Part shown: positions 19,726 to 59,268 of the stretch, piece by piece
How the letters are laid out: each line of letters starts with the position of its first letter
How positions within the stretch are numbered: position 1 is the first letter of the stretch
Source of the DNA: Naganishia liquefaciens
Taxonomy: Eukaryota; Basidiomycota; Tremellomycetes; Filobasidiales; Filobasidiaceae
Assembly (NCBI GenBank): GCA_013423385.1
Contig: BLZA01000009.1
Location: 930,001 to 994,000, forward strand
Direction: 5' to 3'
Length of the DNA: 64,000 nt
Notes under the pieces: generated by a model
Told to the model about the DNA's origin: nothing
Database searches by the model: none
What the model saw: the letters and a program-made list of their open reading frames with translations, nothing else
Translations under genes and position numbers: made by a program

Positions 19726-22700
19726 ATGACGAAGAAAGGCATATCGTCTCCGGAGAAAGAGGAGAAGTCCCCGTCACGACGGCTCTCATTGCATCGCAAG
19801 ACGCCGTCAAATGGGTCAGCGACCAGTCCCTCACCATCCGCAGCCACTATCTTACCGAAATCGTCTAGCCATAAAGGTTTACTGCAGTCACCCGCGAAGA
19901 AGGCCGTTGGTCTCCTGAATGCCATCTCCCCGGGAAGAAGACGATCTGAGCCGCAAGCCGAGGGTACGCAAGCAGCAAACGTTTCTGTGGAAAAGCAGCT
20001 TGTAACCGAGGATGGGGAGAGTTCCCAAGCTGCCGCTACCGAGGAGACGTCAAGGCTTAACAATACACCTGAAGCTACGAAAAGCTTGGAACATCTGAGT
20101 ATGGATGATTCCGCCAAGTTCAGTGATGCGGAAAAAGCGTCTACATCCCCACCTCGTCACATTCCTTCAGTTATCTCTGGGGGTAAACTCGCTATCAATA
20201 GGACCAGAAAGCTATCTCAGTCTCCGCCAGCTCTCCCACCTCGAAGTATCTACGAGCTGATGAAGCCGTTGCGGCCGAAACATATTCAAGACACGAATGA
20301 TGGAATGGTCGTCGACCCGTCATTGAATGAACATCTTGTGGAGCCGGAATTGATTGCCGTCGAAGATGCAGATCCTCCGCCGCCGCCGTTGATCTACGAG
20401 GTCGAAGATGACGGAACGCCCATTGCGCCGCTACAGGGCAAAGACAGCTGGGATACGAAAGCGACAGTGGAACCGGTGGACTACAACATGTGGGATGACA
20501 GTAATTCAGTACCTGTGAACTATTTTAGCGAAGAGAACACGGTCGACAATAGTGAGCAACCTAGGCGCGCCGAAGGACTAAAGCTGATCGCTGCCGTCAC
20601 ACAGCTCTCGCATTAAGCGACGGAATTCAGACCTTCCACCTCTCCAACCGCTCGGCGGATCTTGAAACCCACAATCACCTAGGACCAGGAATGACCTATT
20701 TGCGCATGTTGACCACTGGCGTTCATTCGGGACACTATGCCGTTTGCGTCAAGCCCGCCAACGAGCAGATATCGCGCGACATACCATCCGACCTTGTGGA
20801 AAGCGCAATCTCCAGCATTCCCCATGTTCCACGGTCTGTCACGGAAATGAAGCCTGAAACACATTGGATGTTCTGTATAGACTGTGCCGGATGGTTCCGT
20901 GTGATTGGCGGAGTGAGCGCTCCGCGGGAACTCTTGACCCAATTCCAGCTAAGGACGGAATCCGATTCCGACGGAGCATCGCAGGAATTAGAGTCGGAAT
21001 TGCAAGCCATAGAACAAGCGATCAAGAATTCAGAAGATCACAGGCGGCCACATCACTTCCACGCTGTACCGGACTCGATACCGCGGCCGGCTTCGGTGGA
21101 CATTGACCTCGCCCAGCTTGCCATTCCGCTCGATACAGTCAACGCTGCAGCTGATTTATCAAGCTACCATTGCTGTTATTGCGGTCTCTTCCTCGCATGC
21201 GATACCACGGCAACAGTGAGCTCGATCTTCCCGACCGATCTGCTGGATCGTCTGTTCAAGCGTGATCCAGTCCCTGGTGACGCGGAAATACCGATTGCCA
21301 GATTCTATCGAACATTGAAACTGCTTCATACGTAAGCTCCACCTACATCGCCGCAACCGGATCTTCTAAGATATCATCTCCCCTCCAGGATCCTGACAAA
21401 CATACTATGCGGAAGGCAAAAGGCGGAGATCAAGGCTGATGCGAAAGTCTTCATTGACAAGATCGGAAGCGATGATATAGGGTGAGAATCGGAGGATCCG
21501 ACACTGCGAGCTAGCCGGTATATCATGCTGATCATTTGATCCGTGACAGGCAGGAACTCATGGAACGGATTGGGTTTCGATGGAAAGAGGTTGAGGAGGA
21601 TGAAATCAAGCGAAGCCGATGGGCCATTTCCATGGAAAAGGAGGACGTGGTAAGACAAGCGACACGCGCATGGGTAGAATTAGGGATCAGACTGGGTGCT
21701 CCGAGCAATCGTTAGTTTTTGAGACATCCCTGAGGTTAGCTGACTCACCAAGGCAGCCGCCGAATGCTTTTCATCATTCAGCCGCTCGAGATGACACACA
21801 TTACCTGCAAGTATGGGATCTAGCATCCGTCATCCAATCCACATTATCTCGAGCTTTGCGTGCGCAGTCTCCAACGGAGACGCCGGGAGACAGACGCACG
21901 GTGCTTGATGCTCGTAAGCGGTTCACTGCACACCCACTGCCTGTTCTGATCATCAGGCGAGGATCCAGCCAGCCCCAACCATGAAAACAGATTGTTTCCA
22001 ACTTCAACCATACAGATAGCTTGTACGGAGATTGGATGCTCTCCATTAGATTCGGCAAACGCTATCAGCCTGGCGGCCGTCAATCAGACGATATGCAACC
22101 CGAAAGCTACGGCACAAATAATGGATCGAATGGAAGTTCTTGCCACCCATCCCGACACACCGGAATTCTTTGGTACTGAAGAAATTGAAAAGTTGCAGAG
22201 CGCTTTCGTGACGATCAAATCGAGCGGGTTTCCCACTTCAGGTAGGGAATATCTGGAAGGATCGCATGAGTTGGCATTGATGCGTCATCTTCTACTTCTA
22301 AATAGCGGACATGCAGAAAGCTTACGGATTGTTCAACTTCGACGATAGCGTTATACGACTGATTGAGGCGGACGCGGCCGAGGGATCATCCTTAATTCTG
22401 ATGCATGCGCGTCAAATGATGGGTCTATCAGAAGAAGTTGAGCAACCAACAACACTAGTCTCGTCAGACCAGCAGAAACAAAGAGCGGAAGTTCTTGAAG
22501 CTTTGGAAACTCTGGGTAATGGCTTCGGAAATCTGCAATTCAGTAAAGACATCGCTCTACTTCGCGAGGAGGCTCTAGAGTTGCCGGAAGCCTTGAAGGC
22601 TTTGGAAATCACGGATGCTTCCACTATTGAACCTGAATTTTGGGAAATGTAAGCCGGGACATTGAATGAGAAGCAGAAGCAAGCTGCTGAACTTCGCTTT

Positions 22701-25455
22701 TTAGTATTTACAAATCATACGTGCTGGAAGTGAGTGGTACCGATCCGATAGATTGCAAGAGAATCTCACCTGTTTCATTAGGTCCCGGAATCGGCCCACC
22801 GAACGAGAATAAAAAATGCTTTCGAGGTAATTGCGAAACGGCTCAATCCGACTGGCCTTCGTGGACTCCTAGATACAGGAAAAAGTACACCGCCAGCCTT
22901 GCCGGCTGGCCTCTTCAATATCGGGTGAGTGTCGCGCTTGTACGAGTCTTCAATCAACATTAATGGATGGGCTATCCTTCTTCAGGAACACCTGGTAGGT
23001 ACTTTGCGACAGTTACAGCTTTCCTGGATATTCGCGCTTACCTCGTGATTCACAGTTATCTAAATTCACTGCTACAGGTATTTGACATGATTGGAGTTTC
23101 CGGTAGAAACTAGTCGCTGACAAAGAGCATTTGTAGTATCTCTACGCGATTCGAGACTTGCGCGTTGAGCTGCAGACTCGCCAGGAGCAACATCCAGCCC
23201 CAATCACGACCTCGCAGGTCGTCGTTGGTGGCAGACTTCTCGCCGGCTCGGAGCTGGAGCGTTCCCGTCGATGTAAGTCAGCGGATCTTCGGACTTCACG
23301 CTCTCTGTGCTCATGAAAGCGCTTCGTGCGGACCGCGCTATAGTCGTTCAAGAATTGGTCAGGCTTTTCAATAGCTTGGACGTATCGCAAGAGAACGCTG
23401 TTCGTCCGGAGAAAGAGCTTGCATATCTTGCTTTGGTCACAGCTGCCGATGAGCAAACGAAAGCGACGCCTTCCGACAGACCCTCTGGAGGAACAGACAC
23501 GACATTGGTAAATGATGAGCCTATGGATATGGATTCTGACGACGTCGCAGCTTCAACCTCTGGCAAGTCGGTTTTGGGCAAGCGATCCACCGAAGAGAGG
23601 GACCTACCGGAAGCCAATCAAGGCCCTCAACAGCCCAATGCTGCTGCGCCCCAGAATGACCTTCAGGCTCCGAGCTCACAGGTCGTCGATGGCACCTCCT
23701 TGAGTCCGACTTCAGACTCAGAACGACCTATAAGGCCTTTACGGAACGCGTCGCAGAGCAATGCTCAACCTCCAAACGCTTTAGAAGAACGACGAGAGCA
23801 TTCCACAGACGTCGCCGACGGTGAGACTGAGTCTGCGCTTGCAGTGGATTCTGGCCTTAATGAGAGCACGCTCCCCCCGCTGGTGCCACCCCCATTACCA
23901 CCCCGCGAGCATCGCCCTTCGATGACGTCGGACATGATGTTCGGTAAGGATTGATGAAGCCGGGGTTCGAGCGTGCAATGACGATGAACCCTCTTACAGG
24001 ACAACAACATGACATTTCGGAATGTATGGATAATGTGCTCTTCCAGGTTGAGGCTGCTCTGGCTTCTGACAAAAACGCTCCCGCCACTGATCAAAATCTG
24101 GTGAAGAGGCAAGTGCAGGAAAACCGCTCGCGTTGAATATGAGCTCATCCCACGTTTTTTTTTTAGGCTGTTCTACGGAAAAGCCAGACAACAACTTCTT
24201 CTGCCCGAAGATTCCAGCGACGCGTCTTCAGGCGAATTGATTGCTCAACCGAGCGTGGAAGTTATCTTCAACAACATTCTACTCAGCGTTAATGAGGATC
24301 GTGGCCTAGATCTATACGATAAACTGCATGATCTTTACTTTAGACTGGACGAAATCGAAATCGACGGTGCAAAAGGGAAAAAGGCCGAGCTGATCGAGGC
24401 GTTGCCTCCACTATTGCATATACAACTACAGGTAAGCAGTGTTGTTAGAGGGCCGTCAACGCGTTGATTGATCTCACATTGTTCATTTCCGCAGCGAGTT
24501 CAATTCGACCAAGAAACTAAAAGGTAGAACTAGCTTGACCTCCCATGAACACAGCCTAGACTGACAACTCGTGCCCTGTAGTGCTTTCAAGTCGAATGCC
24601 TACATCAAATTCGCTGAAACGCTCTCACTCGATCGTTTCCTGCCTACTGCGAACCCCGAAAAGCGAGAGAAATCCATGGGGATCGCTAGACAGATCGCCG
24701 CACTGCGCGCCACGCTCAACGAGCTTGAGTATAGCAAGGTCGGTTGTGTCTGCCTCGAAACCTCCGAACGCTGCTCACTCCTTGTTATAGGCCGGGCCGA
24801 CGGCTAACGACCTAGACAATCTCAGGGAAGCCCTGTTTTCCTTGGACCCGGAGCAAGATCAACTTTACACAGCTCTGGACGCCGAGTCAGCTCGCGTCAA
24901 GCAGGTCGTGGTGGACGCGGAGACAGAGATCCTCGACTTGAGAGCTGAGTTGGACGCGCTTTGGCGCGACGAGACGGCGTGTGAATACGAGCTGTCATCG
25001 GTTTTTATGCATCGAGGTATGTGTGCGTCCTGTGTTTGCCTTTGCCTCAGCTAATTCTGTGCTTTGCTAGGGTCTGCCGGGTTTGGGTAAGTTTACAAAA
25101 GAAAAGTTCAAGGCCAGGCATTCTGATTAGTTCGCGAAAGACACTATTGGCTATATCAGCGCAATCTTCCAGATGCACGTAAGCCATCGAGTCGTTTTGA
25201 GCAACTGCAAGTTGTTGACGCCGATTTTGGTTCCGCGCAGCGGACACATACTTTCAGTTCAACGACGAAACGGTGCGGTCAACCACCGCAAGGGAAGTTC
25301 TGCAAGATACCACTGGAAGCAACGCCAATCCTTACCTGTTGGTCTACGCGAAGAAGGGCAGCGGAGCGATCGAGGTCATGACTCGGGAGCGAAAACGGTT
25401 GCTGGCGGAACACGTTGCGATGCCTGTTGATGAGGAAATCCTGTCGACACGATAG
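19726..25455 (+). CDS. Ubiquitin-specific protease, UBP2/USP25-28 type
   Basis: A cysteine deubiquitinase, likely cytosolic. The yeast relative Ubp2 trims Lys63 chains with Rsp5/Rup1. Seen: a low-complexity N terminus; a Ubp2-like region with WMFCIDCAGWFRV and YHCCYCGLF Cys pairs (20.8-21.2 kb); helical repeats at 21.4-22.6 kb; the Cys box NIGNTCYLNSLLQ, assembled from an exon end near 22.92 kb, a 9-nt exon (22986-22994) and a 22-nt exon (23056-23077); a long disordered insert rich in Pro/Ser (23.4-23.9 kb); QHDISECMDNV near 24.0 kb; and the His box GFGHYWLYQR near 25.1 kb. The gene ends at 25455. An intron with a GTGAGC donor near 20.55-20.60 kb joins the first large exon to LALSDGIQTFHL. 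The start codon is uncertain, because an upstream exon is possible. Confidence 0.88.
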
Positions 25456-26000: not shown

Positions 26001-28209
26001 ATGGCGGACTCGGCAGACAAGCAACATCGAGATGGCAAGGCTGAATCAAACTTCACTATGTGAGTGGAACTTGACAGAGCGATTGGCAGGAATGTCGCAA
26101 AGCGACTAACGGAATGCGGCATTCCATAGGATCCAGTTCTTTGAATGGTATCTCGTGAGTATTGCTTGAGTTCATGTATTTGAGCCTCTCAGCTGAGATT
26201 CGGTGCCGACTAGCCTGCCGACGGTACCCATTGGAACAGATTCAGGGACCAGAGTGAGCGCCTGGCTTCGATGGGTATCACCGCAGCTTGGCTGCCTCCC
26301 CCCTACAAGGGATCTGCCGGCGAAAACGATGTCGGCTATGGCACTTACGACCTCTGGGATCTTGGAGAATTCGACCAGAAGGGCTCTGTGAGAACCAAGT
26401 ACGGGACCAAGGAGCAGCTACTCGAGGCTATCTCGACCGCGAAATCCAACGGAATCATCACCTACATGTGAATATACCTTTCATACCAACCTATTCTCGT
26501 TGACTGACTCTCCGATCAGTGACGCCGTTCTTAATCACAAGATGGGAGGCGATGAAAAGGAAACCTTCCTGGCGACAATGGTCGACGAACATGATCGAAC
26601 GAAAGACGTTAGCGAGAAGCATGATATCCAGGCTTGGACCAAGTGAGTCTCGCTTACATTTCACCATTCTCGCTCTACACCTGACCAACCGCGGCGTTGA
26701 CTGTGTCAGATTCACCTTCCCCGGAAGAGGCGACAAGTATTCCTCGATGAAGTGGAACTTCAATCATTTCAGCGGCTGCGACTGGGACGCCGCTAGCGAG
26801 ACGAAGGCAATCTTCCGAATTCAAGGAGACGGCAAGTACTGGGCCGAAGGCGTCAACAAGGAGAACGCCAACTACGACTTCCTGATGGGCAATGATCTGG
26901 ACACCGATCACAAGGAGGTGCGAGAGGAGCTTTTCAAGTGGGGAGAGTGGATTCTCAAGGAGACCGGTGCATCGGGATTCCGCTTCGATGCCGTCAAGCA
27001 GTAAGCAGTAGATTACCTGGCCGGTCATGCCTTTCTAATAAAAGTTAAATCCGTTAGTATCGACGTTGGCTTCATTCGCGACTTTGTCAAGCACATCCGT
27101 GCAACTTCCAAATCCGACAATATCTTCGGCTGTGGTGAATACTGGCAGGACTCATTCGAAACCACCAACAAGTACCTGGACGACATTGGCGTGCAATTCA
27201 CCGTCTTTGACGCCCCCTTACATTACAACTTTAAGGAAGCCGGTGAAGCCAAGGCCAATTTCGATCTTCGAAAGATTTGGGATGGTTCCATTGTTCAAGC
27301 AAGACCTGTTGACGCAGTCACTTGTGTCGAAAACCACGACACACAACCGGGACAGGCGCTGGAGAGCTGGGTGTCTTCCGGGTTTAAGCCGCTGGCGTAC
27401 GCCCTCATCCTGCTGAGAGTCGATGGATATCCCTGCGTCTTCTACGGGGACCTTTATGGTGAGTTGCTCATGTCTCAGCTGGTCTCCCTGGGCGATTTTG
27501 AAGCCTGACTCCGATTTCCTTTGCAGGCTGTGGCGGAGAGAATCCGCAGGAGCCGATGACACAATTGGAGGACTTCATTCGGGCGAGAAAGTTATATGCA
27601 TATGGCGATGTTCGTAAGTATTATTTTGACTCGGGAGCTATGTTGTCTCCGGAAGTATCCCAAATCTCAGGCTGACGACTTTGTTCCGAATCAGGCGATT
27701 ATTGGGACCATCGTATGCATCTCCTAAAACGTTAAAGGGATCTGATGATGACTGATGTGCCCTGCTTCTCCTTGAATAGCCAATTGTGTTGGATGGGTAC
27801 GGACCGGCGCAGAGAGTCACCCAGACGGTTGTGCTGTAAGACCTTTCCAACATGTGACTTGATCTGCAATAACACTCCACTTCACAGGTTGTCATCTGCA
27901 ATGGCAGCGAAGGTGTCAAACGTATGGAAGTTGGCAAAGTGAGCCGCGAGCTTCCGCACCGGAATTTGCAATCCATTGATCGTTTTATCAGGAACATTCG
28001 GGAGAGGTCTGGACCGATGTTTTGGGATGGCACACGGGGGAGGTGACCATTGGTGAAGGTAAGCGTCTGAATTATATGACGTACGGACATCGCTAAATTT
28101 TGTCCACAAATAAGACGGCTGGGCAGAGTTCAGATGTCCCGCAGAGTCGGTATCCATCTGGGTCAAGAAGGACGCCAAAGGTCGGGAGGAATTTTCCAAA
28201 TGCCATTAA
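26001..28209 (+). CDS. Intracellular alpha-amylase, GH13 subfamily 5 (bacterial type)
   Basis: Hydrolyses alpha-1,4-glucan. In dimorphic ascomycetes the related AMY1 is needed for alpha-1,3-glucan of the cell wall, and members are cytosolic. Seen: no signal peptide; MIQFFEWYLPADG at the start of the barrel, as in liquefying Bacillus amylases; DAVLNHKMGGD; GFRFDAVKH carrying the catalytic Asp nucleophile; GCGEYW carrying the Glu acid/base; ENHDTQPGQ carrying the transition-state Asp; and a short C-terminal beta domain (VSIWVKKDAKG). The first exon codes for a short hydrophilic leader starting MADSADKQHRDG, spliced within the Met codon to IQFFEWYL. About eight short introns are present. The stop follows EEFSKCH at 28209. 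The bacterial resemblance fits an old transfer known for this fungal subfamily; the introns show long residence. Confidence 0.93.
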
Positions 28210-56966: not shown

Positions 56967-59268
56967 TTACACCTGACCCGAACCATACGCTATCGAAGTC
57001 TTGACATAGAAGAGCATATAAGCCTTCTGGTTCAACACCTGCGCTAGTGACGTCGACGTCACTATTCAGCGCAAGACATTTCAGTGCCCGGTCACCAAGA
57101 CACTCATGAAGACACACCTTTCTCGTCATCACACTGGAACCACTCGCACCCGCTCCGAACATTGGCCCAATAGTGGCCGTTATCGAGCTTGCCCTCGTGT
57201 GTGACCACGGTCGACAGCTGGTACCTGTACATCTCGCGGGGGAGTTGATCCTCTTGTCTGTAAAGGGGTGCAAGAAGGTCAAGCGGAGTTTCCGGCGAAG
57301 GGGAACTGTCATACCCATTGATCGCGTCGTGCATATACGGCCGCATGTCGAGCTCTGTCGGAAACGTCACCATGGTCTCCACTTTTGCCAGATTACTTGA
57401 ATTCTGCTCGAATCGCTGCCAAAGCAGAAAGACCGTGTCAGCGCGCTCCTCTCTCGGAAGACCGGTCTGCAGCTGACCTTGAGCTGTATCGCCAGCGTCT
57501 TCGGAAGCTGCTTGAACGACAACTGCTTCGTCGCGCTCTAACAGCTTGGAAATCAGCAATCCTCTCTCAAAAGGACCCACGCCCTTGTCAGAACCCACCG
57601 TCCCGCTCGACACGGCTCGGCACCGCGCACACGTATACGCCTTGTCACTCAACGTTTCCTCGGCCGTATACCGGCGAAAACACTCGCCGAGCGTCAGCGG
57701 CCCGGCGTGGCTCGATTGCAGGGACAAGCTGATATCGAGGATCGGGTCTTCGGTGTGCGTCTGGGCGCCGCACGAGGCGCAGGTGACGGTGGAAAGGAGT
57801 GTTCCGGCGAATGCGCGGTCTGGTGCAGGGGATAATCAGGGCTTTACGTAGAGATTGGAGGGAGTAGGACTGACGCGCAATGCAGGGACAGTGTACGTGT
57901 TTCGTGTCATCATTGCCGCTATGGACATGCAGCTGGTTCAACGCAGCGAGGAAAAATGCATGTGCGTCTTGCCCAGCCACGACAATTAGCCCGTGAGATT
58001 TTCGCAGGGTATAGAGCCTCACCTTGCTGCTCGTGTCCCGCCAGCTCGGAGCTCGCTTTCCACATTGACAGGAGCAGGGCCGTCGGCCCGAACGGGGTGC
58101 CCTCGCCCGTATACGCCTGCACGCGGCCGCATCAGCGAAACAGGATCCTCTAGGAGCTTGACGAATGAGACAAACCTCGATGAATGCCGTATCCATCTCA
58201 CAGCCCATACATTCCCCGACGCCTCCCAGAGCTACGCCATCCTCCCTCGCCTTTCCGGCCCGTCGCGCTTCGCACCCGCGCCTGCTGTGGGATTCGCTCA
58301 AAAAGTACTGCTTGAGCAGCGGGTTGTGAAAGAATGCTTGGAGGATGGCGGAGAGGAAGCATGTTTGCGAGAGGTTGAGGAGCGGGCGGATCGCTTCGGG
58401 GATGTTCAGGTCAAGAAGAGAAAGGCAGGGAGGAAGACGTACAGTGGCATCGGACGGGCGTGCTTCTATTGAGCACTGCTTTTTCTTCGGGCGTCGGTTT
58501 CCATACTTTGAACTTGACGCGCTTGCCATGTTCTAAGAGCAAGTCAGCGAATTTGTCTCCACAGCACCATTAGCGGACCGACCATCGACGGATATGTCCG
58601 ACCGTTCCTCCATGGTCCGCAGCGCACGGTTGCGCCACGTATCGATAATCTCGGCATAGACAAAGTCCTCGCATTGATGACAATAGATTGCACCCGTCAA
58701 TCCATCCACAGCTACAAACACAGGCCAGAAAAGGCGTAAGCAGAACAGCCAGGTCCGTGAGAGGAATGGCCAACTGACAAAACATGTGGCCCGACGCCCG
58801 CGCGTGCGCCCCCGGATGATCCACCACGACCTTGCGGGCCTTGCCCTTTCCCTTGTCCGACGACGACGACGCCGCCGCACCTGGCGGCGCCCTACTCGTC
58901 CCTCGCGCGCTGTCTGGGCTACGTATCGGACGCTTGATGACGATGCTCTTCCGGCACGAAATGATGTCGCATTGAAGGCATACGGACGGGCGGGGGGATG
59001 CGATGTGGCAGTGATGGCATTTCGGGAGTGGACGTTTTGGCGTTTTAGGATTCTTTCAAGAAAAGAGAAAAAAGGGAATGAGTGGGTGATGCAGAGGCGC
59101 AAGGATGCAGCGTACCTTGCTCGGTGCATACGTCGTCGGATCCAATGCCTCCCGGATACACCAGTTGATCACCTTGCGATACCGCGCTTGGAGGTCCTTG
59201 ATTTCATCTGATGAGCATGCATGCAGGTGTGCACACACCCCGGCATTGGTGTGGGATAGATCGGCCAT
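56967..59268 (-). CDS. UBP8: Ubiquitin carboxyl-terminal hydrolase UBP8/USP22, SAGA deubiquitinase
   Basis: Removes ubiquitin from histone H2B within the SAGA coactivator module. Seen: start MADLSHTNAGVCAHLHACSS; an N-terminal ZnF-UBP domain with Cys/His pairs (CLQCDIISC ... YCHQCEDFVY) between 59.27 and 58.6 kb, interrupted by a Ser/Lys-rich insert; a Cys box reading LLNLSQTCFLSAILQ, followed by FFHNPLLKQYFLSESH, as in USP22; AGTLLSTVTCASCGAQ and DPILDISLSLQ; CxxC zinc-type pairs (CARCRA); and the His box GKLDNGHYWANVR. The last intron joins WFQCDDEK to VLNQKAYMLFYV and gives the normal C terminus, with the stop at 56967. The usual Gly-Asn before Thr-Cys is Ser-Gln here. Its start is 247 bp from the divergent adenosine kinase start. 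Confidence 0.9.

Follow-up and report, generated by a model that had tools for sequence, protein, structure and literature searches.

A nine-nucleotide microexon within the Cys box of a Ubp2-type deubiquitinase gene in Naganishia liquefaciens

Results

A Ubp2-type ubiquitin-specific protease gene with 20 introns

The window analyzed here, a 64,000-nt stretch of contig C4 in the 19.4-Mb, 28-contig genome of Naganishia liquefaciens, carries on its + strand a gene for a Ubp2-type ubiquitin-specific protease (19726..25455), which we modeled by hand as 21 exons and 20 introns encoding 1485 aa. The reading frame extends from an ATG at 19726 to a stop at 25455 and is open across all 20 introns, of which 19 are GT-AG and one is GC-AG. 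The GC-AG intron lies at 24109-24166 (GAG|GCAAGT); the join across it gives NLVKRLFYGKARQQLLLP, matching P0003, a protein of N. friedmannii, and P0002 of N. vaughanmartiniae has NLIKRLFYGKARQQLLLP. Alignments with these two proteins span the whole length of the window protein, which is identical to P0002 at 859 of 1463 aligned residues and to P0003 at 830 of 1444 (P0002 and P0003 share 1228 of 1499). A start codon at 20691 and an acceptor giving an exon start at 23320, both part of an earlier model, were replaced after comparison with P0002, the latter by 23344. The least certain part of the present model is around exons 3-7, in the middle of the N-terminal half, where P0002 and P0003 disagree with the model and with each other.

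The UCH profile PF00443 matches the window protein with an E of 1.6e-38 (133.2 bits; cut-off 23.9) and the spliced model has both catalytic boxes, GNTCYLNSLLQ for the Cys and GHYW for the His, by which the modeled product classes as a ubiquitin-specific protease (peptidase C19). Its relatives include proteins named Ubp2 by their sources, for example the Tulasnella "ubiquitin-specific protease ubp2" (P0004). Searches of the genome with P0002 and P0004 gave 13 and 6 matches, respectively, all of them at this locus among the best candidates scored, and no second, uninterrupted Ubp2 copy was present among those candidates. Within the matches scored, this is the sole Ubp2-type deubiquitinase locus found in the genome, and the UBP2-like identity proposed in an earlier note on this DNA is upheld. 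The RPT repeat (PF13446) was found in all three relatives scanned outside Naganishia (Tulasnella, Trametes and Calocera), whereas P0002 and P0003 lacked it at E 0.001, and relaxing the threshold to E 10 did not reveal it in the window protein. Membership of the Ubp2 subfamily therefore rests on the catalytic half, and we use the term Ubp2-type in that sense rather than filing the gene as a proven Ubp2, a subfamily that RPT may or may not define.

The Cys box is assembled from three exons

Exon 9 (22782..22924, + strand, as are all exons described here) ends with ...GLFNI plus GG (bases ATATCGG) and is followed by the 61-nt intron 9 (22925..22985; GTGAGT...TTCAG). Exon 10 (22986..22994; GAACACCTG), with AG before it and GT after it, is only 9 nt long and codes for the last base of a Gly codon, Asn, Thr and the first two bases of a Cys codon. 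Beyond intron 10, likewise 61 nt (22995..23055; GTAGGT...CACAG), the 22-nt microexon 11 (23056..23077; TTATCTAAATTCACTGCTACAG) contributes the third base of the Cys codon and then YLNSLLQ, and after one more intron (GTATTT...TGTAG) exon 12 (23137..23272; YLYAIRDLR...) opens with TATCTC at 23137. Joined in frame, with GT-AG throughout, exons 9, 10 and 11 give GLFNIGNTCYLNSLLQ (joined frame, GLFNIGNTCYLNSLLQYLYAIRDLR), and the catalytic Cys codon is split TG|T between exons 10 and 11. As modeled, exon 10 is a microexon, that is, coding, at most 30 nt long and bounded by canonical splice sites on both sides. The exon end at 22924, the 9-nt and 22-nt exons and the split codon agree in coordinates and sequence with what the earlier note had claimed. 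Downstream, exon 14 (24000..24108) carries the QQHDISECMDN box, and a 16-nt microexon, exon 19 (25071..25086), directly precedes the His box (SAGFG|HYWLYQ), whose His lies in the 38-nt exon 20 (25141..25178; HYWLYQRNLPD).

Splice sites were scored by leave-one-out on the model itself, with its 20 introns placed by hand, and the scores are therefore rough. The donor and acceptor of intron 9 scored 7.4 bits (10th of 20) and 7.0 bits (4th), and those of intron 10 scored 8.2 bits (5th) and 4.9 bits (13th); exon 10's own acceptor and donor thus rank 4th and 5th, and the outer donor and acceptor needed for skipping it rank 10th and 13th. Intron lengths in this gene range from 52 to 107 nt (median 58.5), compared with the 131-nt intron that skipping of exon 10 would require. 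The predicted RNA fold of 22900-23100 was unremarkable (z = 0.64; 151 of 200 shuffles fold at least as well).

On the model, joining exon 9 directly to exon 11 preserves the frame and drops Asn-Thr-Cys, as the earlier note had stated. The Asn lost in this way is presumably not that of the oxyanion hole, which, by comparison with USP7, would be the one in NIG; that residue precedes the Cys by five positions and is retained in exon 9. Since the length of 4 of the 19 internal exons is divisible by three, frame preservation by exon 10 is not special. Retention of either intron 9 or intron 10 leads to a stop at the second codon, an outcome that also does not set these introns apart because retention produces an in-frame stop for 15 of the 20 introns and a stop at the second codon for 7, introns 9 and 10 included.

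Exon 10 restores a conserved catalytic motif

The pattern AG-GAAYACNTG-GT/GC occurs once on the two strands of the window, at exon 10, and it arose in 5 of 200,000 single-base shuffles of the 131-nt interval less its last two bases. For a fragment spanning exons 9-13, the PF00443 score was 40.6 bits with exon 10 and 21.1 bits without it, on either side of the 23.9-bit cut-off. In a homologue search made with the earlier gene model, GNTCY was found in 119 of the 120 homologues listed (120 examined of 413 found). P0002 has the complete Cys box, with an identical NIGNTCYLNSLLQYLYAIRDLR, and the lone exception is P0003, which reads LPAGLFNIGYLNSLLQYLYAIRDLR (NIG-YLNSLLQ) and lacks N-T-C; its sequence equals the product of exon 9 joined directly to exon 11. 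These two proteins make conservation of exon 10 within Naganishia probable.

GHY, too, is missing from P0003 alone among the 120 listed homologues (115 have GHYF and 4 have GHYW), and the His-box region of P0003 carries unrelated residues at the place where the window gene has the 16-nt exon at 25071-25086. Because P0003 loses both boxes at two microexon sites, failure of gene prediction is likelier than an isoform; a true isoform skipping exon 10 would leave the loss at the second site unexplained. On the simplest reading, the N. friedmannii gene would contain this microexon too, and the P0003 gene model would have omitted it. No further protein of the skipped form emerged when P0003 residues 893-950 were used as query (32 candidates, with matches only to P0003 and P0002), and close relatives sought with P0002 as query (E 1e-20, with words taken from its first 500 residues) were limited to P0002 and P0003. 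A Funannotate annotation of N. friedmannii is described in the part of PMC12204325 available to us, in which the QFC tag does not appear.

Other Cys boxes and very short exons

A six-frame search of the genome with PF00443 lists 24 matches, none of them at the Ubp2-type gene. For comparison we took all ten genome regions whose match in this search starts within profile positions 1-9. In eight of them a single frame holds the Cys-box segment, six reading G-N/S/A-T-C, one SQTCF (L014) and one SGTLCY (L016); in one of the eight (L017) the open stretch starts one residue before GNTCY, so an upstream intron is possible there. A single intron, lying one base ahead of the Cys codon (GN, AG|T, Cys), divides the USP Cys box of L022 (G000:C14:329100-329900). 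L021 (G000:C7:407600-408700) is USP-like with GLNNIRANDYLN at the Cys-box position and no Cys there, resembling in this the splicing factor Sad1/USP39. Among the ten regions, the double split around nine bases is thus unique, whereas an intron in the Cys box is not. The window itself contains a second ubiquitin-specific protease (57119-58382, - strand) with LLNLSQTCFLSAILQ in one frame, a sequence that we take to be typical of the SAGA-linked Ubp8 type.

Very short exons are frequent at the locus: 5 of the 21 exons of the Ubp2-type gene are at most 30 nt long (25, 9, 22, 29 and 16 nt), as are 2 of the 9 modeled exons (25 and 18 nt) of the neighboring alpha-amylase gene (PF00128 match, E 1.8e-21), whose model excludes the 3' end. 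The 25-nt alpha-amylase exon (26130-26154) supplies the final base of a Met codon and then IQFFEWYL, and the 18-nt exon is at 27695-27712.

Discussion

Exon 10 is in all likelihood a constitutively included microexon

We infer with considerable confidence that exon 10 is a constitutively included microexon of a Ubp2-type deubiquitinase gene. Introns 9 and 10 would each be recognized by intron definition as ordinary 61-nt introns and then removed, probably in sequence, since a 9-nt exon offers scant space for the complexes of both splice sites. The joined mRNA would encode a normal Cys box and an active enzyme. Errors at these introns would abolish activity, with retention leading to an immediate stop; skipping of exon 10 would leave the protein at full length but deprive it of its nucleophile. 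According to the accessible portion of PMC7653365, Ubp2 of S. cerevisiae interacts with Rsp5 via Rup1, reverses Rsp5 autoubiquitination and targets K63 chains; going by similarity, the window protein may have the same role.

Condition-dependent efficiency of splicing at introns 9-11 could set the amount of active Ubp2, with skipping being irrelevant. The second-codon stops produced by retention of intron 9 or 10 are in keeping with this idea, as is the dominance of intron retention in C. neoformans and its response to growth conditions, reported in the part of PMC5006051 that we could consult. However, introns 9 and 10 are ordinary among the introns of this gene in the stops that retention brings, and we judge such tuning to be unlikely. 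It is compatible with constitutive inclusion of exon 10, and the likelihoods that we attach to these two readings and to regulated skipping therefore need not sum to one.

The earlier note had gone further than the exon structure and proposed that alternative splicing of the 9-nt exon acts as an on/off switch. In such a scheme exon 10 would be a cassette exon, and transcripts skipping it would yield a Ubp2 of full length but without catalytic activity, a possible competitor of the active form. Because skipping keeps the frame and removes only N, T and C, such a switch is possible but not likely. The 9-nt length is a multiple of three, the deposited P0003 has exactly the skipped form, and there are precedents in fungi: a glucose-regulated 20-nt microexon of Trichoderma Xlr2, encoding PCRRCE with two zinc-cluster cysteines (available text of PMC11121469), and exon skipping within the alternative splicing of C. 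neoformans (available text of PMC3990503). Nevertheless, P0003 also lacks GHY at another microexon site, which points to a failed gene model, and the 131-nt intron needed for skipping exceeds all 20 introns here while exon 10's own sites are strong. The RNA structure around exon 10 is not notable either, and in the surveyed fungi covered by the accessible section of PMC3925392, skipped exons make up on average 3% of alternative splicing events compared with 61% for intron retention. With ordinary splice sites, intron lengths and RNA fold, the sequence contains no pointer to regulated skipping; the structural part of the note's interpretation (exons, UBP2-like identity, split codon and frame-preserving skip) stands, whereas its switch does not find support, and we regard the switch as highly improbable. 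The same low likelihood applies to a conserved, regulated exon 10 whose skipping in Naganishia-type yeasts yields a full-length Ubp2 minus Asn-Thr-Cys that still binds partners, for example the ligase Rsp5, and serves as a built-in dominant-negative form. If regulated skipping were nevertheless true, splicing would delete the nucleophile of the enzyme and almost nothing more.

To a coincidental 9-nt match, with a real product lacking the Cys (an inactive Ubp2 or a pseudogene), we give next to no credence: the silence of the six-frame search at this gene would fit it, but a chance match is rejected in view of the rarity of the pattern in shuffles together with homology, namely the full-length open frame common to two Naganishia proteins and the complete Cys box of P0002.

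The case of this gene illustrates how an enzyme can seem absent or dead to a six-frame search, which lists no match here, or to a gene predictor. Annotation can drop catalytic residues, as it probably did in the deposited P0003, which lacks the GNTCY and GHY of its relatives. Before an enzyme of an intron-dense yeast is claimed to be inactive, its gene should be checked for microexons.

Comparison with known systems

In a survey of the literature on microexons in fungi or deubiquitinases, none of the papers listed, judged by title and start of abstract, dealt with a microexon in a deubiquitinase Cys box. At the protein level, close counterparts are basidiomycete Ubp2-type proteases such as Tulasnella P0004, which has the Cys box GNTCYLNSLLQ in common with the window protein and is 37% identical over 93% of the catalytic query. 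Human USP28 is the best sequence match in the PDB (8p1q, 3.9e-13), followed by USP25 and others, and both its Cys box, GLKNVGNTCW, and its His region align with the window protein; this similarity to USP25/USP28 is distant, and the comparison covers the catalytic half only (662 aa of the earlier model).

At the level of gene structure, C. neoformans likewise has intron-dense genes, in which the median intron length is 56 nt and the smallest exons measure 1 bp, although in the available text of PMC3990503 this is a genome-wide statement and does not concern a catalytic box. Its alternative splicing is mostly retention (PMC5006051, in the text available).

A further parallel is the 20-nt microexon of Trichoderma virens Xlr2, which, in the accessible part of PMC11121469, also encodes essential cysteines, is included in the absence of glucose and is missed by most of the orthologue gene models described. 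Xlr2 inclusion is seen by RNA-seq to depend on glucose, whereas exon 10 is predicted from sequence. Furthermore, the 20 nt of Xlr2 are not a multiple of three and, in that same part of PMC11121469, no reads join exons 1 and 3, whereas skipping of exon 10 would be in frame. The precedent of Xlr2 cuts both ways: a fungal microexon can serve as a switch, and exons of this kind are also lost from gene models.
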